A stretch of 49,726 nt of DNA, taken from an uncultured Bacilli bacterium (GTDB taxonomy: Bacteria > Bacillota_I > Bacilli_A > RF39 > UBA660). The position numbers and the translations under genes were made by a program. The first letter of the stretch is position 1. Every line of letters begins with the position of its first letter. The notes under the pieces are model-generated. The model searched no databases and had not been told where the DNA came from. It worked only from the letters and a program-made list of their open reading frames with translations. The stretch is taken from NCBI GenBank assembly GCA_947629025.1, contig CANRCC010000010.1, forward strand, positions 1-49,726, written 5' to 3'. Positions 2,323 through 49,726 of the stretch are shown here, one piece after another.

Positions 2323-4869
2323 ATGGCAAAGAAAAGTGAAAGTAGTAATATAGTTCAAAAGATACATGATTATTCCCTAGAAGAAATAATGGGAGATAGA
2401 TTTGCTTCTTATTGTAAAGAAATAATTCAAGATAGAGCACTTCCTGATGTTAGGGATGGACTAAAACCTGTTCAAAGAAGAATACTATATGGAATGTATG
2501 AAAGTAAAAATACTTATGATAAGAAATATCGTAAAAGTGCAAAAGCAGTTGGAGAAATAATGGGTAATTACCATCCACATGGTGATTCATCTATATACGA
2601 TGCGATGGTTAGAATGAGTCAATATTGGAAATTAATGACTCCATATATTGATATGCATGGTAACAATGGTTCTATGGATGGTGATTCTGCAGCTGCGATG
2701 CGTTATACTGAGGCAAGACTTTCTAAAATTAGTAATGAATTATTAAAAGATATAGAAAAAGGAACAGTTAATATGGCTCCTAACTATGATGATACTAGAG
2801 TTGAGCCTACAGTACTTCCTTGTAGATTTCCAAATCTTTTAGTTAATGGATCAACAGGAATAAGCGCAGGATATGCTACTAATATTCCACCACATAATTT
2901 AGGTGAAATAATAGATGCTACTATAAAAAGAATAGAAAAACCAAATTGTTCATTTGAAGAAATATTTGATATTGTAAAAGGACCAGATTTCCCAACTGGT
3001 GGAATTGTAGAAGGCAAAAAAAATATTGAAGAAGCATATAAAACTGGTAAAGGTAAAATAAATATTAAATGTAAATATGAGATAATTAAAGAAAAAAGCA
3101 CTCATCAAATAGTTATTACAGAAATACCATATGAAGTAAATAAAGCAAATTTAGTTAAGAAAATAAATGATATAAGAATAGAAAAGAAAATAGATGGTAT
3201 ACAAGAAGCAAGAGATGAAAGTGCAAGAGGAGATTTAAGAATCGTAATTGATTTAAAAAAAGATGCTAATAGTGATTTAATTATTAATTATTTATTAAAA
3301 AATACTGATATGCAAATATCATATAGTTTTAATATGATTGCTATTGTAAATAGAAGACCAAAACTAGTTGGAATAGTTGAAATATTAGATGCTTATATAG
3401 CACATCAAATAGATGTAGTAACAAGAAGAAGTAAATTTGACTTAAAACATGCTCAAACAAGAATGCATATTGTTGATGGATATTTAAAAGCAATGAGTAT
3501 ACTAGATGAGGTAATCGCATGTATTAGAAAAAGTAAAAATAGATTAGATGCAATAAATAATTTAGTAAATGAATTTGAATTTACTACAGAGCAAGCAACT
3601 GCAATTGTAGATATGAAACTTTATAGATTAACTAACACAGATGTAATCGCATTAGAAGAAGAAAAGAAAAAACTAGAAAAAATTATAGAATTCTTAAACT
3701 CAATTTTATCTGATAATAAAGTATTATTTAGACAAATGAAAAAAGAATTACTTGAAATAAAGAAAGAATATGCAAAAGAAAGACAAACAGTAATAAAAGA
3801 TGAAGTAACAGAAATTAAAATTGATGCTCAAGATATGATACAAAAAGAAGATGTAGTTGTTGTAGTAACGAAAGAAGGATATGTAAAAAGAGTATCTAAG
3901 AAAAGTTATGCATCATCAAATACTGAAGAAACAAATCTAAAAGAAAATGACTACATAATAGGATTATATGAATTAAATACACTTGATACAATATTACTAT
4001 TTACTGATTTAGGAAATTATTTATATGTACCGGTCTATGAATTACCTGATTTAAAATGGAAAGATTTAGGTAAACATATAAGCAATATAATAACTATTAA
4101 ATCAGAAGAAAATATAATTAAATGTATACCAGTAACTAATTTTGAAAATAGTATAGTAACTATATTTACAAAAAATGGTATGATTAAAAGAACTGATATA
4201 TCAGAATTTAAACTTCAAAGATATTCTAAAGCAGTATCTTGTATAAAACTAAAAGATGATGATAAAGTTGTTAGTGTATCAAATTCAAAAGAAAAAGAAA
4301 TATTAATTTCAACTCATAATGGATATGGACTTTGGTATGGCATAAGTGAAGTACCAGTAACAGGAATTAAATCTTCAGGAGTTAAATCAATTAATTTAAA
4401 AGATGATTATGTAGTATCTGGTAATATATTTAGTTTAAATGATGAATATATTGTTGTATTTACAGATAAAATGACTGCAAAAAGAGTAAAAATAGAAGAT
4501 ATGGAAAAATCTTCAAGAGCAAGAAGAGGACTATTATTAATTAGAGAGGTTAAAACAAATCCATATAAAATACTAAACACTTTTGTAATTAATAGTAAAG
4601 AATCAATAGGATTTATATGTAATGAACAAATAAATACAATTAAAAGTACAGAAATACCAATTAGTGATAGATATTCAACAGGATCTACTATATCAAAAAA
4701 GAAAATAAAAGATGTTTTTGAAGTAAAAGAATTCTTAAGTAAAGAAGAACTACAAAAAGAAGAAGATATAGAAGTATTAGATGAAGCACAAAAAAAAGAT
4801 GTATCATTAAAAGAAATAGATGATAAAATTATGACAATTGATGATTTTCTAGATGATTTTATGATATAA
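2323..4869 (+). CDS. parC: DNA topoisomerase IV subunit A (ParC)
   Basis: DNA-cleaving subunit of topoisomerase IV. The breakage-reunion domain is near the N-terminus: [19 protein letters not shown], then [15 protein letters not shown], and [10 protein letters not shown] with the catalytic tyrosine near residue 128. The quinolone-region serine (about residue 90) is intact and the usual acidic position four residues on is Asp. The C-terminal beta-pinwheel repeats run from about residue 500 to 800, and the tail is acidic (IDDFLDDFM). I chose ATG 2323 over an in-frame GTG at 2314 because AGGTGA lies at a good distance from the ATG. It follows parE directly. GyrA is the alternative, but the [11 protein letters not shown] region and the parE partner favour ParC. 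Confidence 0.96.
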
Positions 4870-4889
4870 TGTTTTAAAGGAGGTATAGT

Positions 4890-4970
4890 ATGGCTGCAGT
4901 TATAGGTGCTATTGTAGGTGTTATAGTAGCAATAATATTAGTAAGTAAAATAAAATCAAGTAAAAAATAA
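4890..4970 (+). CDS. 26-residue hydrophobic membrane microprotein
   Basis: A short open frame begins 20 bp after parC and is preceded by a strong AAAGGAGG ribosome binding site. The product is one glycine-containing hydrophobic helix (AAVIGAIVGVIVAIILV) followed by a basic end (KIKSSKK), so a single membrane span with a positively charged tail is likely. The next gene (a lipoprotein) starts 19 bp later, so it may be co-transcribed. I do not recognise the peptide. The strong RBS and compact spacing are the main reasons to think it is translated. It could be a small membrane regulator or a type I toxin-like peptide, but no antitoxin RNA was identified. Confidence 0.55.
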   Translation: MAAVIGAIVGVIVAIILVSKIKSSKK

Positions 4971-4989
4971 TTGTTAATAGGAGTTAAAC

Positions 4990-5538
4990 ATGAAAAAAAT
5001 AGTAAAAATATTTATATGTATGCTTTTTGCGCTAATTATAGTAACAGGTTGTACAAAAAAAGATGATTCAAATATTTCAAAATCAAAATCAAAAGGAAAA
5101 TGTGATGTATTTGAGTGCATTAAGAAAATCAAAACTAATAATACACTTGAAGAAGTTAATGAAATAATTGGATTTGATGGAGAATATATTGGAAAAGAAG
5201 CAAAAGTTTATTACTGGCAATTAACAGATGATACAGGTGTTCAAGTTCAATTCTTTGATTCTGGTAATTGTAGAATTGATATAGATTATAAAAATCAGAC
5301 AATTGCAAATAAAAAGAATGATTTTTCAAAATTTGATCAAATAAAGAAAAAACTTAATAAAGGTGAATCATTAAAATATGATGAATTTGTTAAAATAATT
5401 GGTGGAGTAGAAGGAACATTAGATTCTAAATATGAAGGTACATTAAGTTATTATTGGGTTAATAAAGATGGTGGATATTTAACTGCACAATTTGATTCAG
5501 AAACATTAGAATGTAAAGTTGCATCTGGGATGTTTTAA
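4990..5538 (+). CDS. Secreted lipoprotein with two BLIP/SmpA-like repeats
   Basis: A 182-residue protein with a lipoprotein signal peptide: Lys-rich start, hydrophobic core, and lipobox VTGC with the cysteine near residue 21. The mature part has two similar halves. Each starts with a helical stretch (KIKTNNTLEEVNEIIG and KLNKGESLKYDEFVKIIGG) followed by a beta-rich part with Y-Y-W (VYYWQLTDDTG and LSYYWVNKDGG). That helix-helix-beta repeat resembles the SmpA/BLIP-like (DUF3862-type) fold found in many Firmicutes lipoproteins. The family call is by pattern only. It would be anchored on the outer face of the membrane. A terminator overlaps its stop codon. Confidence 0.75.
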   Translation: MKKIVKIFICMLFALIIVTGCTKKDDSNISKSKSKGKCDVFECIKKIKTNNTLEEVNEIIGFDGEYIGKEAKVYYWQLTDDTGVQVQFFDSGNCRIDIDYKNQTIANKKNDFSKFDQIKKKLNKGESLKYDEFVKIIGGVEGTLDSKYEGTLSYYWVNKDGGYLTAQFDSETLECKVASGMF

Positions 5539-16302: not shown

Positions 16303-16812
16303 ATGAAAAATAATAAAAACATTTTAATCGCATCATTAGTATTCGTTATACTTGTTATGATGGTAGGATATATAGCATTTGCTAAAAAATTAAGTGTACA
16401 AGGTAAATCAACAGTAACAGGAAAGTGGCAAGTAGAAATAACAGGAATAGTACCAAGTACAATAGGAAATGCAGAAGCAGGAGATCCATCTCATACCTCA
16501 TCTACTGCATCATTTAATTCAGCTTTTGTTAATGCAGGAGATTCAGTATCTTATTCAGTAACTGTTGAAAATAAAGGTACTATAGATGCAAAATTAAATG
16601 ATATTAAATTAGCAGCAGATAAAATAACAGAAGATGGACAAGATAATGTAGTATATGAAATAATAAATAAACCAAATAAAGGTGATATACTATCTGCTGG
16701 AAAAGCAATAACTTTAGAAATTAAAGCAACATATAATCCAGTTAGTAAAACTAGTTCTTCTATAGAAATTAGAAACTTTACTGCAATAGTAGAATATGTA
16801 CAAGCAAATTAA
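16303..16812 (+). CDS. Secreted TasA-like / SipW-cognate-type protein
   Basis: A 169-residue protein with a long hydrophobic N-terminal segment (about residues 6-26, ending YIAFAKKLSVQG) that resembles SipW-cognate signal peptides, then a beta-rich domain with VTVENKGTIDAKLNDIKL and LEIKATYNPVS. These are features of the TasA/CalY-like biofilm and camelysin families and of related bacterial Ig-like folds. No SipW peptidase is in view. The next gene is a DUF5305 protein, a partner often seen with TasA/SipW systems, so the two may build a cell-surface structure. It has a good GGAGG RBS. Confidence 0.65.
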   Translation: MKNNKNILIASLVFVILVMMVGYIAFAKKLSVQGKSTVTGKWQVEITGIVPSTIGNAEAGDPSHTSSTASFNSAFVNAGDSVSYSVTVENKGTIDAKLNDIKLAADKITEDGQDNVVYEIINKPNKGDILSAGKAITLEIKATYNPVSKTSSSIEIRNFTAIVEYVQAN

Positions 16813-16832
16813 AAGTGTAAAACACTTTTTTT
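16811..16832 (+). terminator. Terminator after TasA-like gene
   Basis: AAAGTGT and ACACTTT arms enclose three A residues and are followed by T residues. Confidence 0.75.
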
Positions 16833-16879
16833 ATTTAGTAAATTATGTATACCTAATATGTAAAGCAACTTAAAAATCT

Positions 16880-16908
16880 TTGAAATACATAAATAAGTAT
16901 AATATAAT
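16880..16908 (+). promoter_or_regulatory. Promoter of DUF5305 gene
   Basis: TTGAAA at 16880-16885 and TATAAT at 16903-16908 with a 17-bp spacer. Confidence 0.6.
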
Positions 16909-16940
16909 GATATATATAAGAAAGTACTATAGGTGATAAT

Positions 16941-18002
16941 ATGAGAAAAAAGATAAAAAAGAAAAAATTAGTTTTAAAAAAATGGGTACGAGTTTCAATT
17001 ATATTTATTCTTACATTTTCTATTCTTATATCCATATATTTAATATTATCTTACTTTTTCCCAAAGTTAGATAAAAATCCATATTATAATTACAATATAA
17101 AAAGAAATATAAATTATAAAGTATATTTAAAAGACAATAATTTTTTTGAAGAAGAATATCAACAAGAGGGAAAACAATATACATCAGATTTAATAGATTA
17201 TATTGATATAGATTTAAGTTATTTATTTAATGGTTCTTCTATAACAAATATGAATTATAATTATGATGTTACTGCAAGTATAATAGGAGAGTATGAGAAT
17301 GCAACTAGTGGAGAATCAGAACTATGGACTAAAAAATTTACATTACTTGAAAAACAAAATAAAGAATTATACGATATTACAGATTTTGATATAAATCAAA
17401 ATTTAAAAATAAATTATGACAGTTATAATAAAATAGTAAATGATTTTAAAAATCAATTAAATCTTGCAATTGATGCATACTTAAATATAAAATTAAGTAT
17501 TAATTATGATGGAATAATTCAAAGTAATAAAAATAAAGTAAAAGGAAAAGATAAATTAGAAGTAATTATACCACTTGCAAAAACTACAACAAATATTCAA
17601 ACTAAATATGATAAAGAAACAACTAAAAGTTTAACAAAAACAGTTGACCAGTCTAGAAATAAAGTTAAATTATTTAGTGGATTATCATTATTAACAATTT
17701 CTATAATATTAATTATAATGGTAAGAGATAAAATATTTATTAGTAAAAAAACATATTATGCAAAAATGAAAGAAAAAATATTAAAAAATTATGCATCAAT
17801 AATAGTAGAGGTTTCTAATCCAGTTGATCTTGAAAATCTTCAAATATTTGATATAAAAAACTTTGAAGATATGATAGATGTAGAAGAAGAATTAAAATCA
17901 CCAATATTACTATATGAAGAGCAAGAAAATGTAGAAAGTCATTTTATAGTAGTAAATGATAAATATGCATATAGATTTATATTAAATAATAATGATTATT
18001 AA
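16941..18002 (+). CDS. DUF5305-type membrane protein
   Basis: A 353-residue protein with a basic start, one membrane span at about residues 18-38, a large extracytoplasmic region to about 245, a second span near 250-268, and a cytoplasmic tail of about 85 residues. The extracytoplasmic part shows the DUF5305 pattern: NYKVYLKDNNFF, YTSDLIDYIDIDLSYLF, and a later VIIPLAKTTTNIQ. DUF5305 proteins often neighbour SipW/TasA-type genes, matching the gene upstream. The function is unknown. It converges on pyruvate kinase with a shared terminator. Confidence 0.7.
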   Translation: MRKKIKKKKLVLKKWVRVSIIFILTFSILISIYLILSYFFPKLDKNPYYNYNIKRNINYKVYLKDNNFFEEEYQQEGKQYTSDLIDYIDIDLSYLFNGSSITNMNYNYDVTASIIGEYENATSGESELWTKKFTLLEKQNKELYDITDFDINQNLKINYDSYNKIVNDFKNQLNLAIDAYLNIKLSINYDGIIQSNKNKVKGKDKLEVIIPLAKTTTNIQTKYDKETTKSLTKTVDQSRNKVKLFSGLSLLTISIILIIMVRDKIFISKKTYYAKMKEKILKNYASIIVEVSNPVDLENLQIFDIKNFEDMIDVEEELKSPILLYEEQENVESHFIVVNDKYAYRFILNNNDY

Positions 18003-38324: not shown

Positions 38325-39419
38325 GTGTTCTTTAAAGATATTCATATTAGAATTAGATTATTTTTTGTAATTGTTATAATACTTTTTTTAGTAATAATTG
38401 GAAAAGTTGTTTATATCCAAGTATTTGAATATGATAAGTTAAAAGAATTGTCATCAGATCTTTGGAGTCGTAATCTTCCTGTTGAGGGGAATAGAGGAAT
38501 AATATATGATAGAAATAGCGTAATACTTGCAGATAATGTTACAACAACTAGTTTAGTACTTATACCAAATCAAATAAAAGAAAAAGATAGAGCAATAAAA
38601 GAATTATCAAAAATACTTGGTATATCAGAAGAAGAAATGAGTAAACATGTAAATAAAAAAACATCAATAGAAAGAGTTCATCCAGAGGGAAGAAGATTAT
38701 CATTTGATATTGCAGATAAAATATCAGCATTAAATTTAGAGGGAGTATATTTAATAAAAGAATCAAAAAGAAACTACCCATATGATAAAAATTTATCACA
38801 TGTTCTTGGTTATGTTGGTATTGATAATCAAGGTTTATCAGGACTTGAACTTCAATATAATGAATATTTAACTGGAGAATATGGTTCAATAAAATATTTC
38901 TCAGATGCTAAAGGAAATAAGCTAAAACTAAGTGAAATATATGAACAACCACAAGATGGAGTTAATATGATGCTTACTATAAATAATGAAATACAAATGT
39001 CTGTTGAAAGAGAATTAGATAATGCTGTTATGAAATATAATGCAGAAAAAGCATTATCAATAGTTATGGATCCTAATTCAGGAGAAATACTTGCTATGAG
39101 TTCAAGACCTAATTTTTCACCTTCTAATTATAAAAAATATACTATAGAAGAAATAAATAGAAATTTACCAATATGGATGAATTATGAACCAGGATCAACT
39201 TTCAAGATTATAACACTTGCAACTGCACTTGAAGAAAACTTAGTTGATTTAGAAAAAGAACATTTTTATGATGGAGGAAGTGTTAGAGTAGCAAATGCAA
39301 AAATAAAATGTTGGAAAAAAGGGGGACATGGAGATCAAACTTTTCTTCAAGTTGTTGAAAATTCATGCAATCTTGGTGTCAATACAGCAACACATACAAA
39401 TTTGAAGAAAATGCTTTAA
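38325..39419 (+). pseudogene. Truncated class B penicillin-binding protein (SpoVD/PBP2B-like)
   Basis: The first ~350 residues are a clear class B PBP: anchor helix at about residues 12-30, dimerisation domain (GNRGIIYDRNSVILADN), then the transpeptidase with the catalytic serine of STFK near residue 291 and the SCN triad at about 347. Directly after SCN-LG the match stops and the frame ends 15 residues later, so the KTG motif and the last third of the domain are missing. It cannot be a working transpeptidase. GTG 38325 has AAGGTGA upstream. A full PBP of the same class is at 14098. Either a deletion or insertion junction, or an assembly join, lies near 39375. Confidence 0.85.
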
Positions 39420-40300
39420 ATAACACAAAAAACCATACCCAAATTGATGTTTGTTCTACCTTTAATTTAGTTTATAATAATGTATCTTACATAAATAATG
39501 AGGATATTAAAATAGATAATTCTGTAATACAAATTATTTCTAACAAAAAGGATAATACTAAAAAAATCAATAATAAATTATTTAATATAGATACTAATAC
39601 TTATGAAAATATAATATATAATAAAAAACAAATTGCTATTGATTTATTAAATAGATTAGATTCTTCTATAATGGCTATCAGTAAAAATATTATAAAGAAT
39701 TATTTGATAAAAAATATCGTTTATAAATTAAATAATAGAATTGCTGAAATACAAGTAAATCAAAATAACTTATTAGTATCTTTTCATAAGGTTGCTAAAC
39801 AATTTGATATTGAAAATAAGTTAATAGATCGTAAAGGATATGAAAATAATAGTATATGCTATTCTTTAAATGTTGAAGATATTAATAGTTGTGATTATGC
39901 AACTAAAATTATTGAAAATATGTATAACTTTTTTACTACCCCACAAGAAAGTTTAAGTAATAGTTTATTCAATACTTTAAAATTTAAAATTAGTACATTA
40001 AGCACTTCTATAAGTAACCATACGACTAATAAGGGATTAATGTTTAAAGGAAAAAGAAATTTTGTATTATTATCAAAAACAAATTATGGTGTTTATGTTA
40101 GGTTATTAAATGTTGCTAATTCAAATAATGAGTTAGATGTTGTTACTAGAAAAAGTTATGAGCCACTATGTTTATCATACAAAGTTAAAAATAATGATGA
40201 TATTGATACATTATTTCCTTATATCAAAGAAAGTTATGAGATGTGCAATATTAACCCAATTGATTTAAAATATGAATTTTACAAAATCTATCAAGTTTAA
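39377..40300 (+). pseudogene. N-terminally truncated protein with two DUF5655-like repeats
   Basis: The frame is open from the PBP junction to 40300, but no RBS or plausible start is present, so the 5' end is probably lost. From about residue 90 of the open frame there are two similar domains. The first has SIMAISKNIIKNYLIKNIVY and FDIENKLIDRKGYENNSICY and ends CDYATKIIENMYNFF; the second has GKRNFVLLSKTNYGVYVRLL and DDIDTLFPYIKESYEM. The order (basic Asn-Phe strand, paired strands, then a D-D-I-D helix ending S-Y-E) fits the DUF5655 family, found at the C-terminus of some nucleic-acid-related proteins. A terminator follows. Confidence 0.55.
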
Positions 40301-40327: not shown

Positions 40328-40435
40328 TACAAGTGTTAAAGAAAAATATTCATAATTTTATTAATTGATTAACTATGTTTATGATTTGACATTTTTTTCA
40401 AGAGAGGTAACATGCAATTAACTGGAGGTATGAAA

Positions 40436-40693
40436 ATGAAAAAAATTGATAAATTATACTTAGAAGAGGATAAAAAAATTAGAATATTACATGAATCATA
40501 TCTTTTGGCTGACTTATTATTCTTAAATTATAAATACCCCAATAGTCATTATTACGGCAATTCTATTGATAGTATTTATAATTCTATTCATGATAAAATA
40601 GTTTTAAATAAAAAAGATGAAGAAAAAATAATAAATGATGCTTTGATACTATTAAAAATAAAATATAATATACAAGATATTTTTAATAATTGA
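40436..40693 (+). CDS. Small hypothetical protein, 85 residues
   Basis: A soluble, mainly helical protein (KIDKLYLEEDKKIRILHESY, then LLADLLFLNYKYPNSHYYGN). GGAGG lies seven bases before ATG 40436, preferred to in-frame starts at 40412 and 40430. TTGACA at 40385-40390 may be its -35. The family is not recognised. It is the first gene downstream of the DUF5655-like remnant and the last before the 325-bp leader of the sigma-like gene. Confidence 0.5.
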   Translation: MKKIDKLYLEEDKKIRILHESYLLADLLFLNYKYPNSHYYGNSIDSIYNSIHDKIVLNKKDEEKIINDALILLKIKYNIQDIFNN

Positions 40694-41018: not shown

Positions 41019-41495
41019 ATGAGAAATAATAGAAGAAAATCAAAAGATAATCCATATTTGATTGAACAAATTGGTAAAGAATATTTTGTAAAATTTAAAA
41101 ATACCATAGGAGAAGAAATTGTAATGCCAATAAGTTATGAGATTTTTAATTCATTTGATAAATTTGAACTGGAAGATATATCACAAATGCATAAATTTGA
41201 ACGTCATATTGAACATTCTATAATCTATGAAGAAAAGTTATATTGTAGAGGGGTAAGAAAGGAGCAGTCAATATTAGACTATTTAATTAACAAGGAGTTA
41301 ATCGAAGATTTATATCAAGCAATACATAAATTATCAGTAGTACAAAAAAGAAGGCTAATATTATACTATTTCTATGATAAAACTTTAGAACAAATTTCTA
41401 AAATTGAAAGTTGTTCTATTCATTCTGTCTTCGTTTCAATAAATCGTTCTATAGATAAAATAAAAAAATTTTTAATTTATAGTGTAAAAAATTGA
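41019..41495 (+). CDS. Small sigma-70-like factor (region 4 type) of mobile elements
   Basis: A 158-residue protein matching the small sigma-like factors of clostridial mobile elements and phages: DNPYLIEQIGKEYFVKFKNT, ISYEIFNSFDKFELEDISQM, HKFERHIEHS and then the region-4 HTH (LSVVQKRRLILYYFYDKTLE, QISKIESCSIHSVFVSINRS). It lacks a clear region 2, so it may be a co-activator or a reduced sigma factor. It likely controls the downstream phage-like and RHS genes. Its RBS lies in the right arm of a 15-pair hairpin, so translation is probably regulated. The next gene starts 135 bp after it. Confidence 0.78.
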   Translation: MRNNRRKSKDNPYLIEQIGKEYFVKFKNTIGEEIVMPISYEIFNSFDKFELEDISQMHKFERHIEHSIIYEEKLYCRGVRKEQSILDYLINKELIEDLYQAIHKLSVVQKRRLILYYFYDKTLEQISKIESCSIHSVFVSINRSIDKIKKFLIYSVKN

Positions 41496-41629
41496 CTTTT
41501 AGTGGGGAAACAATTGAAGAGATAATTTTCTCTATCCATTTGTTTCTTTTTTTATATTGTCTAGTGAAAATCCAGAAACAAATGCTTTATTTTAGAGTTG
41601 TTAAATTTAAAATGAAAGGAAGGGATAAT

Positions 41630-42685
41630 ATGAATTTAACAGATCAAATAAAACAAGGACAGGATAGTATACTTATTGGCGATGCACTTAGTATGGCTAT
41701 AATGTCAATGAAAATATGTCCAATGGAAGGAGTAGTAGCACCTGATAGTAATGAATTAATTATAAGTGTAGGAGATTCATATGCGGGATTAATGTCACCA
41801 AAGGGTAAAATATATAACTATGTTTATAATATTTCTAAGCCATTATGCTATAGTGAAGATCATTATGGTGAATTTCATCAAGAAATAAATATCATAAATA
41901 ATGAACCACAAATGAGAGCATATATAGAATGGTATGATGATGGTGTAAATACAATTGAAGAATTAGAACCAATTAATCTTATATTACATCAAGGATATAA
42001 TATAATAAAAACAAATTATCAAAATGTAGAATTAGAAATGCTTTATCCAAGAAATAATGATTTTAATAAAAATTTTATAAATACAACATTTTATAATATG
42101 AATAAAAAAATTAATAATGAACTTTCAATAAATGATTTATATTTTAAAGATGCATTTACAAAAATGGGAGATGAATTAAATTTAGAAGTAGATAATTTAA
42201 ATGTTAAATGTATTACATCAAAAAATAATAAATTTAGTCTTGATAGTGATGGTAATTTAATTGTTAACAGCATTACTACAAATAGCGATAATATATCAGG
42301 TAGTATTAATCAAGACGAAATATGTAATTTTATTTATCCAGTAGGAAGTATTTATATGTCAGTAAATAATATTAATCCATCTACATTATTTGGTGGTACT
42401 TGGGAACAATTAAAAGATAGGTTTTTATTGGGTGCAGGTAGTACATATGGTAATGGTGATATAGGTGGAGAGGCTTCTCATCTTTTGACTATTAATGAAA
42501 TGCCAACTCATACACATGGTGTTAATTTTGATCAACTATGGTCTTTTGGAGGTACAACAAGTTTAGCAACAACATCTGGAGGTCCTTATGGTGCAGCAGG
42601 TTATATTCATAATACAGGAGGATCTCAACCACATAATAATATGCCACCATATTTAGTTGTTAATATCTGGAAAAGAGTATCATAA
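41630..42685 (+). CDS. Phage tail-collar / baseplate-type protein
   Basis: A 351-residue protein. The N-terminal half is unrecognised (possible attachment part, TDQIKQGQDSILIGDALSMA). The C-terminal ~110 residues are a clear collar/baseplate domain: CNFIYPVGSIYMSVNNINP, LFGGTWEQLKDRFLLGAGST, EMPTHTHGVNF and PHNNMPPYLVVNIWKRV. This domain caps receptor-binding fibres in tailed phages. ATG 41630 has AAGGAAGG upstream; the longer frame from 41492 overlaps the sigma gene and lacks an RBS. No other tail gene is present, so it is either a remnant or a recruited surface or export component for the RHS protein that follows. Confidence 0.8.
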   Translation: MNLTDQIKQGQDSILIGDALSMAIMSMKICPMEGVVAPDSNELIISVGDSYAGLMSPKGKIYNYVYNISKPLCYSEDHYGEFHQEINIINNEPQMRAYIEWYDDGVNTIEELEPINLILHQGYNIIKTNYQNVELEMLYPRNNDFNKNFINTTFYNMNKKINNELSINDLYFKDAFTKMGDELNLEVDNLNVKCITSKNNKFSLDSDGNLIVNSITTNSDNISGSINQDEICNFIYPVGSIYMSVNNINPSTLFGGTWEQLKDRFLLGAGSTYGNGDIGGEASHLLTINEMPTHTHGVNFDQLWSFGGTTSLATTSGGPYGAAGYIHNTGGSQPHNNMPPYLVVNIWKRVS

Positions 42686-42695
42686 ATATAAAATT

Positions 42696-43037
42696 ATGAA
42701 ATATTTCAATAATTATAAAAACCTCTTGTTGGAATTTAATATATTAGTTGAAAGATTAAATATTATAAATGAATATGAGGAAAAGTTATTAAAAGAAAAA
42801 AAAGAAATAGATGATTTAATAAAACATCAAAGTAAAACTATAAAACAAATTGAACAAAATATAGATCAATTAAGTGGTATAGAAAATAAATTATTTAAGG
42901 AAATAGTTATAAATGGTATTAATGTATCTAAAGCGATTGAAAAAGTTGCTGAAGAAGAACAAAAAGATGTATCTACATTATGGAAAAACTATTATCCTAA
43001 AGTGAAATATAAGATAGATCAATTATATGTTAAATAA
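42696..43037 (+). CDS. Small coiled-coil protein, phage-regulator-like
   Basis: A 113-residue protein. About residues 1-70 form a coiled coil (ILVERLNIINEYEEKLLKEK, KKEIDDLIKHQSKTIKQIEQ). The end has a possible HTH: LFKEIVINGINVSKAIEKVA, then EEEQKDVSTLWKNYYPKVKY. This resembles DUF1492/ArpU-like small phage transcription factors, without a firm match. ATG 42696 starts ten bases after the collar gene and is preferred to the ATG at 42657 inside that gene; no strong RBS is visible. It sits between the collar gene and the RHS gene in one likely transcript and could regulate or chaperone the latter. Confidence 0.55.
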   Translation: MKYFNNYKNLLLEFNILVERLNIINEYEEKLLKEKKEIDDLIKHQSKTIKQIEQNIDQLSGIENKLFKEIVINGINVSKAIEKVAEEEQKDVSTLWKNYYPKVKYKIDQLYVK

Positions 43038-43063
43038 TAAATGTAAAGATAAAGGAGGAAAAT

Positions 43064-46000
43064 ATGAATCAAATAGAAATTATTGGTAAAAGAAAAAAAA
43101 GAGAAAAACATTTTTTACAAGACGATGGTACAATAGTCGCAGAAATGTATAATGAAAATGTCCATTTTCTTAAAAATGGACAATATGAAGAAATAGATAA
43201 CACTCTTATTTTAAAAGACGATTATTATATTAATAGGAATAACGAATATAGTGTTAGTTTTGCATCAAAATCAAGATCCAACATAATAAAATTAGAAAAA
43301 GAGAAACATTATATTTATTTATCATTAGATAAATTTAATGATTTTAATGTTGAATATATAGATTTTAAAAATAAACTTAATAGTAAAATAATATATCAGA
43401 ATGTTCTTAAAAATATAGATATATATTATGATATCACTCCATCAAAAATCAAAGAGAATATAGTTATTAATAATCTAGATAATGAATTAGATAAACTTGT
43501 ATTTAACATTGAAACTGATTTAGTTTTAAAAACAGATAATAATGGAAGCATAAGAGCAACATATAATGGTGAAGACGTATTTATTTTTGATTCACCTTAT
43601 ATGATTGATAGTAAAGGAAAAATTAGCAATAAATTAACTTATAATTTAATAAAAGATGAAGAAAAATATCAATTGTTTATGTTTATTGATAAAAAATGGT
43701 TAGAGTCAAAAGCAATATATCCAGTTATTATAGATCCAACAATAACAAGTTATAGTGAGAATGATAACGTTTATGATACTTTTATATATCCAGGAGATAC
43801 AAATATTAATAGAAATAATTTACCTTATTTAAAAGCTGGTGTAGAAAAAGTTAATGGTAATGATGTAATAAATAGAACTCTTTTAAAATTTAATTTACCT
43901 ACAATAGGTACAGGGAGCCAAGTTGTAAAAGCAACATTAAATTTGACGGATTACCCAGATATTTTTCATAATTACGAACATGGTAGTGTAGATTTTCATA
44001 GAATAACTCAAGACTGGGATGAAACTACTGCAAACTGGGATACAATGAATAATAAATATGACAGTAGAGTAGAAGGTATGTGCATTTGTAATAGATTATA
44101 TTATACAGATGATGATGGTGTCATTAATTATGTAAGTAGTTCTTCTACAGATATAACTTCTCTAGTTCAAAAATGGTATACTAATCTTCCTAATTATGGA
44201 ATAATGTTAAAAACAAGTGAAGAAATATATAAAACTGATGGATTTCCAATGTTTTTTTCAAAAAATAATGCTATAACAAGTGGTTATAATCCAAAACCAT
44301 TATTGATAGTTACATACAGAAATCAGAATGGCTTAGAAAATTATATGGAGTATGAAATTCAAGAATTTACAAAAGGAAAATCATATCATAACATCTATAA
44401 TGGAAATCTTACTCAAATTTTTGAAATAGGCTTAATAAAAAATAGTAAAATGCCATTAAATTTAAATCTTGTTTATAATACAAATGATGTAGTTTTGAAA
44501 AATAATATTGGATATGGAAGAGGTTATAGATTAAATTTTTATCAAACTATTAAAGAAGAAAAGATAGACGAAAAAAATTATATAGAATATACTGATGAAG
44601 ATGGTACACTTCATTATTTCTTAAATGAGAAAACATCAATTGAAGATGATAATTTAAAAACAAATAATACTGGTAATATATACTACGATGAAGATGGTCT
44701 TGATTTGAAAATAGAAATTACTGATGACAAATATGTAATGTATGATAAAAGTGGTAATCAGATGATATTTGAAAAATATAAAGAAGTTGGATATTTAACA
44801 GAAATAAAAGATATAAGTGGTAATATTAGTACAATTCTTTATGATGCAGAATATAAAAAAATATTAGGTATAAGAGGTTGTGAGGATCAATACATTAATA
44901 TAATTTACAATAATAATTATATATCAATTATCAGTCCACTTCATACAGTTGAATTATCTTATTTAGATAGTGATATTTTAAGTAATATAATATATGAAAC
45001 AGGTACAGTTTATATTTTTCATAATGAAAATTATTTAGTTTCGGGTATTAGAGGCTTGAATGGAAAAGGTTTTGATTATGAATATTATAGTGAAATTCCA
45101 TATAAGTTAAAAAAAGTAACTGAAATTGGGATTGATGATATTATTGGAAATTATTATAATGTTGAATATGGATTTAATACAACATCTGTTATTGATTCAA
45201 AAAATAGAATAAAAACAATAGCATTTAATAACTATGGTAATCCAATATGTATATCTAGTTTAAAGTCCAGTAATGATATTACCAATGCATATGGCTATAA
45301 TGTTGAATATGGTGAATCTATAAATGGATATAATGTATATAAAAATAAATTATTAAGTAGTATGATACCAGTAAAATATGTTAAAAATATTCTTAAGGAT
45401 ACAAGTTTTGAAAATAGTACGATTACTTTTTTACCAAATGCCTCTTCATCAGTAGAAATAACGGAAGAATATGCAAATTTAGGATCTAAAAGTTTAAAGT
45501 TTAGATCAATTGATGGTTTAAATCCAGCGGAAATATCCCAAGAAATTAAAGTTACTAAAGGAAAAAGTTATACATTCAGTGCATATATAAAGACAATTTC
45601 TTCTGAGTATTCTGTAAATTTATGTATAGGTTATTATGATGAAAATGGTGATTTTATAAAAATGTTAAGTGATTGTACAACAAACGAAGATGATGATTTT
45701 GAAAGATTAGATGCAACAATTTTTTATTCAGAATCATCTTCATCAAATTTAATATTAAAAATTTGTATGAATGGGGTAGGAACTTGCTTTATTGATAATG
45801 TTCAACTTGAGGAAGGCGAGGTAGCGAATAATTATAATTTAATAGATAACTCTGATTTTTCAGATGGATTTAATGATTGGAATTTACAATCAGGAGAGAA
45901 TTATCCAGTGTCTAATATATTTAACATTGTTAATATTGATAACCAAAATGCATTAAAAGTCAATATGTTCACATCTAATGGGAGTAGTTTATCAAAGAAA

Positions 46001-49000
46001 TTTAATATAAGTGGTAAAGCTGGTGATCATTATGTATTATCATTTTGGTATAAAAATAAAGGTTTAAATGGAGTATCTTTATTTGAAGAAGGCCCAATAA
46101 ATGGCATTAGTATTACATTCTATCCTGATAATGATACAGGTTTTGGTGGAGATACAATTGAAAATTATACATTAAATCCTGGTGAGGATCAATGGCAATT
46201 TTTTATACATGATTTTTATGCTGATTATGATTTTAAAAATTTTGAACTAGACTTTTATCAAGTATTTAATGGAAATGAATTTTATATAACAAATATTAAT
46301 TTCTTTAAGGATGTTAGAAGTGTCAGATATGATTATGACAGCAATGGAAATCTAATAAAATCAAAAAATTTAAATAATCAAATAAATGAGTTTAATTATG
46401 ATAAAAATAATCAACTTGTTAAAATGACTGAATATAAGGGTGCAAATTTTCATTATGAATATGACAATACTATAATAGATAGATTACTTAGGGGTGTATC
46501 GGGTACTGGAATTTCAAATGAAATGGAGTATGATGAATATGGTAATCCAATAATATCTAGAATTATTGACAGGGGTCAAATGATTACTGCAGAGAGTGGA
46601 ATTTATAAAATAAGATTAAAAGGAACAAATAGAGCATTGAGATTATTTAATCATTCTATATTATTAGTTGATGATATACATGGTCACGATAAATGGAATT
46701 TAGAAAAAGTAATCGTAGATGGTAAAGATTATTATAAAATATTCCATTCTATAATAGATGATAGATATTTAACAAATAGTGATGAGAGTATAGTTTTATC
46801 AGCATATCAAGAAGAAAAATCATTATTTGAATTAGAAAAACAAGATAATGGTAGTTTTCATATAAAAAATAAATCAAACGATAAGTATATAAAAAATGAT
46901 AATAATTTTATAGTTTTTGACAGTTTAATAGATGATGATGAAAATTTCGAATTTTATTTTGAATCTATTACAAATGGATTGTTTATTGAAAACTCTGCTC
47001 AATATACTTCAGATGGAAGATTTATTGAAAAAACTATAGATACTAATTTTAAAGAAATTAATTATGATATAGATCCTGTGACTGGTAATATAAATTCCAT
47101 AACGAATTCTAAAAATCAAATAACACATTATAATTACGATAATGATGGCAAAATCATTTATATAATGAACAATGATAGAAAAGTTAGTTATGAATATAAT
47201 AACAACAAAGTTTTAAGTAAAATAATTCAAGATGATAGAGTTTATAGTTTTGAATATGATAAATTTTTAAATGTTAAATCAATTAAACTAGGTGATAGTG
47301 TAATTTTAGTAGATAAAACTTATGAAAATAACAATGGTAATTTGTTATCAATTACTTATGGCAATAATCAAACTATTAATTATGAATATGATGAATTTGA
47401 TAGAATTAGTAAAACGATAAAAGGTGATGATACGTATAGTTATAAGTATAATAATAATGGTGATTTAATAAAAATAATATCTAACAATGATATTATAAAA
47501 TATACATATGATCTAGCTAAAAGACTATACGAATATCAGAATAATAATTTTAAAATAAAGTATAATTATGATGTAAATGATAATGTTATTTCAAAAAAAT
47601 ATTCATTAGATAATATTAATCATACAATTAATAATATTTTAAATGAAGATGATTCTGTAATAAAGACAAGTATTGATAATGATGAAATAAATTATAATTA
47701 TGATGGCTTAGGAAGACTAGTAAGTAGTAATATAAATAACAATTATGAAACAAAATATCAATATATAACAAATGGTAAGAGAACTTCAACGATGGTTAAA
47801 AGTATAAGTAATAATGGTGATAAATATACGTATAAATATGATAGTTTAAATAATATTACACATATTTATCACAATGGTGTATTAGAAAATGAGTATTATT
47901 ATGATGAATATAATCAATTAGTAAAAGAAAATAATTATATTACTAATAAAATTGTACAATACGAATATGATAATTTAGGTAATATATTATATAAAACAGA
48001 ATATGAAATAAATACAAAAAATAAAATAAATCAAAATAAATATGAATATAATAATTTAAATTGGAAAGATCAATTAACTAAATTTGATAATATAGCAATT
48101 AATTATGATAATTTAGGTAATCCGATATCAATAGGAGATAATATAAAAATAAGTTGGATAAATGGTCGACAAATGAATAGTTATGTAGATTCAAAAAACG
48201 TTATTAATTATAGATATAATAAAGATGGTCTAAGAATAAGTAAAATAATTAACAATAAAGAAACAAAATATTATTTAGAGGGTGAAAAAATAGTACTTGA
48301 ACAAACAGATGATGATGTGTTATACTATTTATACGATGGAATAGGAAACATAATTGGTTTTGAATATAAAAATAATAGATATTATTATATAAAAAATAAT
48401 CAAAATGATATTATTGCTATTCTAAATAATAATTATAATATTATAGCAAAGTATATATATGATTCATGGGGAAATATTATATCTATTACTGATGAAAATG
48501 GTATTGATGTGTCTGATAATATCAATCATATAGCAAATATAAATCCATATAGATATAGAAGTTACTATTATGATAAAGAAACAAAATTATATTATTTGAA
48601 CTCTAGATATTATAATCCAAAATGGTGTAGATTCATAAATACAGATAGAATTATAGATAATGAAAATTCCATCCAAGGTAATTTATATGTATATTGTGCA
48701 AATGATCCTATTAATAAAGTTGACTTAAGTGGTAGTTCATTCAAAAGTTTTATAGGAAAAGTAGTTAAAGCAGTAAAAAAGATTGCTAAAATAGTAAAGA
48801 ATGTTGTTGATAAAATAGTATCATCATCAAAAGTGACAAGAACTAGTCATTCTTCAGGTACTAAAGGTTTTATTGTAAAAGTAGAAGATATTAAAACTAA
48901 AGATATTATAACATCTAAAACAGGTAATGATGATAGTCTATTTAAGATAATAGAATATGATAGACCATTTGATATTAATGATCTTAAAAGTATTATAAAT

Positions 49001-49321
49001 ATAGATAGTTTATTAATTTCGACTAATAATAGAATCTTTGATGTAGGTTTAGAAATAGGTAATGGATGGGCAGTTGACTTTTCTTGGAAACAAGATAGTG
49101 GAAACGGAGTACTTTCAATAGGTGCAAACTTATTTGGACAATTTTTCATCGACGTTGGACATGCAGGAGAAGTAAAAAATAATATTCAAAAAACGAGTAC
49201 TACTAATGTTAGTATCAATATATTAATATTAGCATATGCATTTGCCCATATTACAGTACCAGAATTTGATGTTTCAAAAATATTAAAATCTATTTTTTCT
49301 AAACCAAAGCTGTCATATTAA
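43064..49321 (+). CDS. Giant RHS/YD-repeat polymorphic toxin, no signal peptide
   Basis: A 2085-residue protein. Residues 1-225 form a beta-rich N-terminal domain without signal peptide. A DNRLRE-like domain follows (about 235-420: TLLKFNLPTIG, WDETTANWDTMN, WYTNLPNYGIML), then RHS/YD repeats, two carbohydrate-binding-like domains (about 776-1075: DTSFENSTITF, GKSYTFSAYIKT), more YD repeats, a ricin-like beta-trefoil insert (about 1175-1300), and YD repeats to about 1795. The RHS core ends YYLNSRYYNPKWCRFINTD and YCANDPINKVDLSG at about residue 1890. The last ~195 residues are the likely toxin, family unknown. RBS AAAGGAGG. It follows phage-like genes and precedes an immunity-like gene by 18 bp. 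Confidence 0.93.
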   Translation: MNQIEIIGKRKKREKHFLQDDGTIVAEMYNENVHFLKNGQYEEIDNTLILKDDYYINRNNEYSVSFASKSRSNIIKLEKEKHYIYLSLDKFNDFNVEYIDFKNKLNSKIIYQNVLKNIDIYYDITPSKIKENIVINNLDNELDKLVFNIETDLVLKTDNNGSIRATYNGEDVFIFDSPYMIDSKGKISNKLTYNLIKDEEKYQLFMFIDKKWLESKAIYPVIIDPTITSYSENDNVYDTFIYPGDTNINRNNLPYLKAGVEKVNGNDVINRTLLKFNLPTIGTGSQVVKATLNLTDYPDIFHNYEHGSVDFHRITQDWDETTANWDTMNNKYDSRVEGMCICNRLYYTDDDGVINYVSSSSTDITSLVQKWYTNLPNYGIMLKTSEEIYKTDGFPMFFSKNNAITSGYNPKPLLIVTYRNQNGLENYMEYEIQEFTKGKSYHNIYNGNLTQIFEIGLIKNSKMPLNLNLVYNTNDVVLKNNIGYGRGYRLNFYQTIKEEKIDEKNYIEYTDEDGTLHYFLNEKTSIEDDNLKTNNTGNIYYDEDGLDLKIEITDDKYVMYDKSGNQMIFEKYKEVGYLTEIKDISGNISTILYDAEYKKILGIRGCEDQYINIIYNNNYISIISPLHTVELSYLDSDILSNIIYETGTVYIFHNENYLVSGIRGLNGKGFDYEYYSEIPYKLKKVTEIGIDDIIGNYYNVEYGFNTTSVIDSKNRIKTIAFNNYGNPICISSLKSSNDITNAYGYNVEYGESINGYNVYKNKLLSSMIPVKYVKNILKDTSFENSTITFLPNASSSVEITEEYANLGSKSLKFRSIDGLNPAEISQEIKVTKGKSYTFSAYIKTISSEYSVNLCIGYYDENGDFIKMLSDCTTNEDDDFERLDATIFYSESSSSNLILKICMNGVGTCFIDNVQLEEGEVANNYNLIDNSDFSDGFNDWNLQSGENYPVSNIFNIVNIDNQNALKVNMFTSNGSSLSKKFNISGKAGDHYVLSFWYKNKGLNGVSLFEEGPINGISITFYPDNDTGFGGDTIENYTLNPGEDQWQFFIHDFYADYDFKNFELDFYQVFNGNEFYITNINFFKDVRSVRYDYDSNGNLIKSKNLNNQINEFNYDKNNQLVKMTEYKGANFHYEYDNTIIDRLLRGVSGTGISNEMEYDEYGNPIISRIIDRGQMITAESGIYKIRLKGTNRALRLFNHSILLVDDIHGHDKWNLEKVIVDGKDYYKIFHSIIDDRYLTNSDESIVLSAYQEEKSLFELEKQDNGSFHIKNKSNDKYIKNDNNFIVFDSLIDDDENFEFYFESITNGLFIENSAQYTSDGRFIEKTIDTNFKEINYDIDPVTGNINSITNSKNQITHYNYDNDGKIIYIMNNDRKVSYEYNNNKVLSKIIQDDRVYSFEYDKFLNVKSIKLGDSVILVDKTYENNNGNLLSITYGNNQTINYEYDEFDRISKTIKGDDTYSYKYNNNGDLIKIISNNDIIKYTYDLAKRLYEYQNNNFKIKYNYDVNDNVISKKYSLDNINHTINNILNEDDSVIKTSIDNDEINYNYDGLGRLVSSNINNNYETKYQYITNGKRTSTMVKSISNNGDKYTYKYDSLNNITHIYHNGVLENEYYYDEYNQLVKENNYITNKIVQYEYDNLGNILYKTEYEINTKNKINQNKYEYNNLNWKDQLTKFDNIAINYDNLGNPISIGDNIKISWINGRQMNSYVDSKNVINYRYNKDGLRISKIINNKETKYYLEGEKIVLEQTDDDVLYYLYDGIGNIIGFEYKNNRYYYIKNNQNDIIAILNNNYNIIAKYIYDSWGNIISITDENGIDVSDNINHIANINPYRYRSYYYDKETKLYYLNSRYYNPKWCRFINTDRIIDNENSIQGNLYVYCANDPINKVDLSGSSFKSFIGKVVKAVKKIAKIVKNVVDKIVSSSKVTRTSHSSGTKGFIVKVEDIKTKDIITSKTGNDDSLFKIIEYDRPFDINDLKSIINIDSLLISTNNRIFDVGLEIGNGWAVDFSWKQDSGNGVLSIGANLFGQFFIDVGHAGEVKNNIQKTSTTNVSINILILAYAFAHITVPEFDVSKILKSIFSKPKLSY

Positions 49322-49339
49322 AAATAAAGAGGTGGCAAT

Positions 49340-49726
49340 ATGAATTATATACTTTTTAGAATAATAATAATTATTTTATTAGAATTTGCATATAAGCACA
49401 TAGGTAATCAAAAGATAAAAAACTTTTATTTTATATTTTTCATATTAATTTTTATTTATCCAATTGAAAATAAAGTTTTTAAATTTAATTCTTCTGATAA
49501 GGCATTTAGTTATTATTATCCTACATCAAAAATATTAAAGAAATATGAATGTAATAATTATGTATATATAGTTTATGAACCACAAAAAAATAAGTTACCA
49601 GAATTTATGTATTTAATAAAAGAAGATGGAACTTGGAAAATTAATAATTTGATAACAAAAGGAGAAGTTATTCCTAAAATATTTGATGAAATATGTACTA
49701 TGTATATTATTAAACCAAAAAAAAGT
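49340..49726 (+). CDS. Likely RHS immunity gene (partial, runs off window)
   Basis: It starts 18 bp after the RHS gene behind GAGGTGG. The first 129 codons are present. The protein has two N-terminal hydrophobic segments and then the same soluble domain as the gene at 32142. Codons 39-129 are identical to that copy at the nucleotide level, while nine differences, all changing the amino acid, fall in codons 3-38. Four of them turn Cys of the orphan copy into Tyr or Phe here. Position makes it the presumed immunity protein of the RHS toxin. The membrane anchor suggests it acts at the membrane. The 3' end is outside the window. Confidence 0.72.
   Translation, partial: MNYILFRIIIIILLEFAYKHIGNQKIKNFYFIFFILIFIYPIENKVFKFNSSDKAFSYYYPTSKILKKYECNNYVYIVYEPQKNKLPEFMYLIKEDGTWKINNLITKGEVIPKIFDEICTMYIIKPKKS

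Follow-up and report, generated by a model that had tools for sequence, protein, structure and literature searches.

We analysed a toxin locus at the right end of a 49,726-nucleotide stretch of DNA (hereafter the window), which is the whole of contig C10 of the uncultured Bacilli genome G000 (1.12 Mb, 36 contigs). A sigma-like factor, a phage collar-type protein, a small protein and an RHS protein devoid of a signal peptide are encoded in line, all four on the + strand (41019-49321), and are followed by a candidate immunity gene. To the left, the locus is bounded by half of a penicillin-binding protein (PBP) gene, at which an integrative element seems to begin. The features of the window are as follows.

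38325..39370, + strand: N-terminal half of the PBP gene (SpoVD/FtsI type, adjoining mraY/ftsW), cut by the element at the SxN codons; Pfam PBP_dimer and truncated Transpeptidase
39367..39370, no strand given: attL core GCAA, marking where the element starts on the left; identical GCAA at attR (L134:3837-3840)
39365..40300, + strand: DUF5655-like open reading frame (ORF) at the element's left end, its start codon tentative; Pfam DUF5655, E 3.5e-5
40412..40693, + strand: ORF of 93 residues within the element, from the ORF list; no Pfam or PHROG match in the family scans
41019..41495, + strand: sigma-region-4-like regulator; Sigma70_r4_2, E 2.3e-5, and PHROG sigma factor matches
41633..42685, + strand: collar protein, made up of an N-terminal beta domain, an RHS-linked pre-collar segment and a C-terminal Gp10_C domain; Gp10_C, E 1.7e-20
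42697..43037, + strand: small protein between collar and RHS (ORF open from 42657, likely start 42697)
43064..49321, + strand: RHS toxin of 2085 residues without signal peptide, with DNRLRE-type N-terminus, RHS repeats/core and variable C-terminal domain; RHS_repeat, E 4e-20
48734..49321, + strand: variable C-terminal (putative toxin) domain of RHS, matching in position the Ntox44, GIY-YIG and Tox-REase-7 domains of relatives
49340..49726, + strand: candidate immunity gene, truncated where the contig stops; a near-copy lies at the right end of contig C22 of the same genome

The sigma-70 region 4 match of the first gene of the line is weak, slightly below the Pfam cut-off, and the gene has a good ribosome-binding site. 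The collar ORF is open from 41492, with its likeliest true start at ATG 41633, preceded by GGAAGG. The small protein has a putative coiled coil and, towards its C-terminus, a conserved block, VTKAIEKVA...DVSTLWKNYYPKVK; it is a possible transcription regulator. A preliminary description of this DNA had set out the same line of genes and the missing signal peptide correctly; its label of "phage-type" for the small protein finds no support, as no Pfam or PHROG family matched. The RHS protein is 100% identical over 1044 residues to a fragment in the metagenome-assembled genome "uncultured Bacilli bacterium Lapin-011__bin79" (L030), and the DUF5655-like ORF has a 49% homologue in the equivalent place in genome G065. 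The contig ends 405 bases past the RHS stop codon, so the window itself has no bearing on whether lysis genes or others follow.

Collar and RHS proteins across the family

An RHS search over 386 genomes of the family gave matches in 55, and 35 RHS loci were read with their surroundings. The collar gene lies immediately 5' of the RHS gene in 34/35 loci, the sole exception being G390, a short contig with just 894 bases upstream. This is the reverse of what the preliminary description had named as evidence against itself, namely RHS genes mostly without the collar. The gene order that it proposed, sigma-collar-small-RHS, is found in full in just 6/35 loci; elsewhere the regulators are of XRE type or other small helix-turn-helix (HTH)-like proteins. 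The sigma-like gene is located 5' of the collar in 9/35 loci and 3' of it in 3/35, and the small gene is present in 10 loci, each time between collar and RHS.

The collar proteins linked to RHS carry, before Gp10_C, a pre-collar segment of the form ...YFKDAFTK..DxLNLEVNNLNxxCITSxNNKFSLDSxGNLxVNSIT.... In a profile search, the full module of collar plus pre-collar segment was detected in 13/145 family genomes, 12 of which are RHS-positive (Fisher p about 5e-14), whereas bare collar domains are present in many unrelated genes. Among 395 genomes sampled across the class, the full module is confined to this family. The N-terminal domain of the collar protein is predicted by AlphaFold mostly at pLDDT > 90, and the relatives of the protein are the C-terminal domain of T4 gp10 and lactobacillus phage antireceptors, to which its C-terminal domain is 48-55% identical. 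These matches are phage receptor-binding and baseplate tips and nothing in them indicates export, leaving the suggested role of the collar as an exporter without support. Further structural relatives of the collar model were not retained: Foldseek TM-scores were low, and the known Gp10_C relation alone stands, the N-terminal beta domain being unassigned. Collar domains are also found in another setting, in the sister genome G001 (contig C12, L283:7619-15989), where two collar-domain proteins with apparent signal peptides lie beside a protein of ~2229 residues. Phage collar domains have apparently been reused there as secreted chromosomal proteins, and similar collar arrays occur in G161, G101 and G180.

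The N-terminus of the window RHS protein (MNQIEIIGKRKKREKHFLQ...) has no hydrophobic segment. The same holds for its homologues: by inspection, no signal peptide or clear hydrophobic leader is present in 19/19 N-termini, all of which begin near the motif KRKxREKHFLQxDGTI. The homologous DNRLRE-RHS proteins from plasmids of Cytobacillus, Rossellomorea and Priestia (n=3), by contrast, carry a clear signal peptide and a linker before the same segment. The window protein thus departs from the secreted, WapA-type RHS proteins. It has the build of an RHS polymorphic toxin, in which RHS/YD repeats and a conserved core precede a variable C-terminal domain, and the solved Rhs shells are among its sequence relatives. 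C-terminal domains differ among homologues whose cores are alike: Pfam recognized Ntox44 in 5 of 29, a GIY-YIG nuclease in 4, Tox-REase-7 in 1 and DUF6973 in 1. Judged from sequence, such variation would be as expected of antibacterial polymorphic toxins. An AlphaFold model of the C-terminal domain of the window protein, made without homologues, was uninformative (pLDDT 35). In several loci (L029, L035), additional RHS C-terminal cassettes are strung out downstream, together with candidate immunity genes. The immunity candidate of the window lies directly 3' of the RHS gene and has, besides its second copy on C22, a 68% homologue in G001.

The integrative element and its lysis genes

The window genome has one PF05105 holin, which is located on contig C22. 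Read in reverse, this contig carries the near-copy of the immunity gene, an endolysin, the holin, a series of nicotinamide adenine dinucleotide (NAD) genes, a large serine recombinase and the C-terminal half of the PBP, followed by mraY and ftsW. Its relevant features (in L134 coordinates) are listed below.

16884-17606, - strand: endolysin with PG_binding_1 domains and Peptidase_M15_3; E 1.7e-19
16522-16905, - strand: PF05105 holin; E 3.4e-19
3863-5500, no strand given: large serine recombinase, by its Resolvase, Recombinase and zinc ribbon domain matches
2972-3837, - strand: C-terminal half of the PBP gene, matching the N-terminal half in the window

The core GCAA is common to both junctions, and the outer flanking arms form a 17/20 inverted repeat; such symmetric arms are as expected of a serine-integrase attP. 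When the flanks are joined, an open PBP frame of 637 residues results, with no frameshift, which parallels the intact gene of G120. The two PBP halves, the shared core and the re-formed gene identify the window locus as an integrative element that spans about 24 kb or more, with the recombinase at one end as in other elements of the large-serine-recombinase type. The same insertion site is occupied in G065, where the entire element lies within one contig, and in G001. We infer, and do not observe, the physical join of C10 and C22, because the two immunity copies are similar, not identical. As far as the element can be read between attL and attR, in the window and L134, it contains no head or tail genes (tube, sheath, tape measure) besides the collar, in agreement with the preliminary description. 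It thus lacks the genes that define a prophage, a contractile injector or a tailocin, which were found just in G171 and in two IMG/VR contigs (L192 and L193).

Lysis genes were assigned in the 35 loci by hand reading; 27 were assessable and eight are cut too short. A holin and/or an endolysin is present within the island in 21/27 assessable loci: those of G167, G261, G270, G398, G334, G359, G190, G203, G358, G188, G368, G171, G224, G069, G220, G293 (two loci) and G113, and, by way of a contig that continues the locus, those of G346, G405 and the window's own genome. These loci are not all independent, G270/G346 and G167/G405 being closely related. The cassette is situated in one of two places: immediately 5' of the collar, where the genes run regulator, holin, endolysin, collar, RHS, or as the last part of the downstream toxin-immunity array. 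Among the 34 RHS genomes, 9/19 PF05105 holins share a contig with RHS and lie within ~20 kb of it (for random placement, binomial p about 2e-9), and 4 more of the 19 are on contigs that continue the RHS locus; the background of this holin is 20/145 family genomes. The endolysin catalytic type differs by locus (M23, CHAP-like or M15), which looks like repeated replacement. The endolysin profile also matches lone M23 genes and normal prophage (G021 C79, G146 C47), which were left uncounted. We also considered whether the lysis genes are part of genes of the integrative and conjugative element (ICE) type, which lie beside the loci of G069, G220 and G368; this was rejected, as the lysis genes adjoin the collar or the RHS array in the ICE-free islands of G188, G203 and G334. 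Three endolysins (L070:1350-2087, L081:762-1586 and L073:15243-16070) have a common C-terminal domain and a swapped catalytic N-terminal domain, CHAP-like by eye in some and M23 in others.

A holin beside an RHS gene was also encountered in a distant gut contig, MT836326.1 (L188:2651-4152), whose database entry describes it as a human faecal phage. The end of a BhlA holin gene (E 2.4e-10) is separated there by 38 bases from an RHS gene that lacks a signal peptide and has breaks in its reading frame. This contig, with its unrelated RHS, is an independent case; with that RHS as query, no relative was found in a scan of viral contigs.

In G171 and in L192 and L193, the module closes the late region of a phage on its right side, with tail proteins, a collar-domain tail protein, a holin-like gene, an endolysin, the collar and RHS in this order. 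A full prophage beside the locus, which the preliminary description had held to speak against it, is therefore found in these three contexts; it is absent from the window. Between the upstream core genes and RHS of G188 and G203, structural genes are likewise lacking. When 101 flanking proteins were scanned for families, the 25 most frequent ones listed were chiefly endolysins, holins, M23 peptidases and HTH regulators, and also included one minor-head and one tape-measure PHROG. The module is thus found in two forms, as cargo of phages and as an island standing by itself.

Toxin release: the favoured reading and its alternatives

The pairing of collar and RHS, the missing signal peptide, the linkage to a lysis cassette and the mobile element are all documented at the level of sequence. 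On balance, it seems probable that the locus encodes an antibacterial polymorphic RHS toxin, carried by a serine-recombinase element and released by a phage-type holin-endolysin cassette, with the collar protein as partner. Release by lysis and the partnership of collar and RHS, which we infer, could proceed as follows. A large serine recombinase would have inserted the toxin module into the PBP gene, the cargo comprising the RHS toxin and its immunity gene, the tail-tip-like collar and one or two small regulators, with the holin and endolysin at its distal end. The sigma-like and other small regulators would turn the module on in a subset of cells, and the RHS protein, as suggested by known Rhs structures, would fold in the cytoplasm into a closed shell enclosing the variable toxin domain. 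Holin and endolysin, to judge from their linkage, would then open the membrane and wall, freeing the toxin and probably killing the producer. The collar, given its strict pairing and the identity of its domain, may assemble with the toxin, cap it or guide it to neighbour cells, of which kin carrying the immunity gene would survive. Of the compact, phage-derived delivery system first suggested for this locus, phage-type lysis fits the lysis genes in the islands of most assessable relatives and on the second contig of the same genome; export through the collar is not supported.

Several observations speak against the release of this toxin by its own cassette. The link between the window and C22 spans a contig gap and rests on the two PBP halves and the similar, non-identical immunity copies, and the C-terminal domain of the window RHS protein has no Pfam match, so that its own toxin type is not assigned. 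No lysis genes are found nearby in six readable loci (G010, G179, G221, G160, G303 and G065), the last of which occupies the same insertion site as the window element. Moreover, holin and endolysin families vary by locus, so the cassette was replaced repeatedly or gathered independently. The six loci and the differing families, together with the frequency of peptidoglycan hydrolases on mobile elements, would also suit an ordinary RHS/WapA-like toxin minus its signal peptide, leaving the cell by a generic exit (autolysis, vesicles or an unknown secretion) with the lysis genes as roleless mobile-element neighbours. We regard this as quite unlikely, given the strong enrichment of holins beside RHS, the placement of the cassette, in phages or not, either directly 5' of the collar or where the toxin array ends, and the gut contig in which a holin adjoins an unrelated RHS without signal peptide.

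The collar-RHS pair could instead be temperate-phage cargo that rides on virions or is released with them, islands of the window type being decayed or satellite derivatives still dependent on phage. The position of the module after the tail genes in G171 and L192/L193 agrees with such an origin, as do the phage antireceptors among the collar relatives and the precedent of MuF, a polymorphic toxin family bound to temperate phages (PMC5576092). We nevertheless find it unlikely: just three of the contexts read are phage-like, most islands, judged by the 25 most frequent families listed, are devoid of genes for head, portal, terminase or tail, the islands of G188 and G203 have core genes upstream and no structural genes, and the window element has its own serine recombinase and att sites. 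It is also conceivable that RHS acts inside the producer cell, for instance as an abortive defence or an addiction module of the element, with lysis as the outcome and not the export route. The absence of a signal peptide, the location on an integrative element and the retention of immunity genes without the toxin in G001 would fit this view, which is very improbable, however, because RHS shells, like C-terminal cassettes that can be exchanged and are accompanied by immunity arrays, typify toxins delivered to other cells, and the tail-tip-like partner points outward.

Returning to release by the cassette, the locus shares with type 10 secretion systems (T10SS) a holin linked to the cargo (PF05105 beside the immunity copy across the contig gap, and in the islands of relatives), a peptidoglycan hydrolase beside it (PG_binding and M15; M23 or CHAP in relatives) and a location outside phage genomes, G171 and L192/L193 excepted. 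It resembles the Yersinia entomophaga Tc toxin (YenTc/YenLC), a related shell toxin released lytically by a T10SS (PMC10847048): in both, a big shell-type toxin without signal sequence is linked to a holin and a peptidoglycan hydrolase in a non-phage context, and the producers are presumed to be a subset of cells, with lysis. YenTc/YenLC is, however, a three-part ABC toxin of a Gram-negative bacterium, released with spanins and directed against insects (PMC10847048), whereas in the present case the cell is of Gram-positive type and the putatively released toxin is one RHS chain, which has a variable domain of antibacterial type and a collar partner and is encoded on a serine-recombinase element. 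No TcA translocation pore gene, as would accompany a TcB-TcC pair, is present in the window element or L134. The clostridial toxins of the TcdE system are likewise Gram-positive and signal-peptide-less, with a toxin-linked holin, but their reported export is non-lytic, they act on animal cells, and neither RHS nor collar is involved (PMC12150058). Since the TcdE holin can act without lysis, non-lytic export might operate here as well. WapA/RHS proteins of Gram-positive bacteria share the DNRLRE region, the RHS core, the variable C-terminal toxin and the downstream immunity gene, which is here a candidate; WapA carries a Sec signal peptide and a cell-wall-binding domain, the present system has no signal peptide but has collar and lysis genes, and the passage of WapA through the wall is unexplained (PMC12704120). 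MuF also places polymorphic toxins on phages of gut Firmicutes, but as a head/portal protein (PMC5576092), whereas an RHS shell and a tail-tip-like collar are found here, usually outside phages. The strings of C-terminal fragments and immunity genes (L029, L035) recall Rhs orphan cassette arrays, from which they differ in that they can terminate in a holin-endolysin pair.

In the literature searched for RHS with a collar, or with phage release, in Gram-positive bacteria, no direct precedent was found. The arrangement is real and unusual, and is best filed as a variant of the RHS polymorphic toxins with type-10-like release, without a claim of T10SS membership. More tentatively, these loci could represent a class of lysis-released antibacterial weapons in Gram-positive-type gut bacteria, combining an RHS shell, a tail-tip-like receptor-binding protein and a dedicated holin-endolysin pair, and spread from species to species by serine-recombinase elements and temperate phages; if so, they would form a protein-only killer between bacteriocin and phage. 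Lytic toxin release by phage-type cassettes is already documented in Gram-negative bacteria (PMC10847048), and the exit of very large RHS toxins from Gram-positive cells is an open question even for WapA (PMC12704120). To this question, the family offers a conserved, compact genetic unit of Gram-positive type and a strictly paired collar protein, and its phage-borne and phage-free versions let the path from phage cargo to free-standing weapon be traced.

The insertion site and other mobile cargo

The PBP gene beside mraY/ftsW is a hot spot for large-serine-recombinase elements, reminiscent of the prophages that interrupt sporulation genes. It is interrupted at the SxN codons in G000, G001, G065 and probably G078, and elsewhere in the gene in G074. 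Several more family genomes have PBP C-terminal fragments of about 290-350 residues, or of 224 residues starting ~60 residues later, some of which are contig ends. In G001, an element of the same type without RHS (contig C9, L282:2752-3369) has kept the 68% immunity homologue and a fragment resembling the endolysin of the window genome, and may be regarded from its sequence as an orphan-immunity version.

The NAD genes of C22 (L134:5481-15454), inside the element, form by eye a salvage cluster of pncA, pncB, nadE, prs, nadD, pncC, an NrtR-like gene and nadK. Its DNA is 96.7% identical to that of G001, against about 83% for the flanking chromosome, and the cluster is therefore probably a recently shared mobile cargo. 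The NadE protein of 647 residues was not found in six other genomes of the same genus. Finally, VirD4/TraG-like coupling proteins were recognized by eye beside the RHS islands of G065 and G069 (L099-L100, L083), and VirB4-like genes near those of G220 and G368; some islands may thus travel on conjugative elements.

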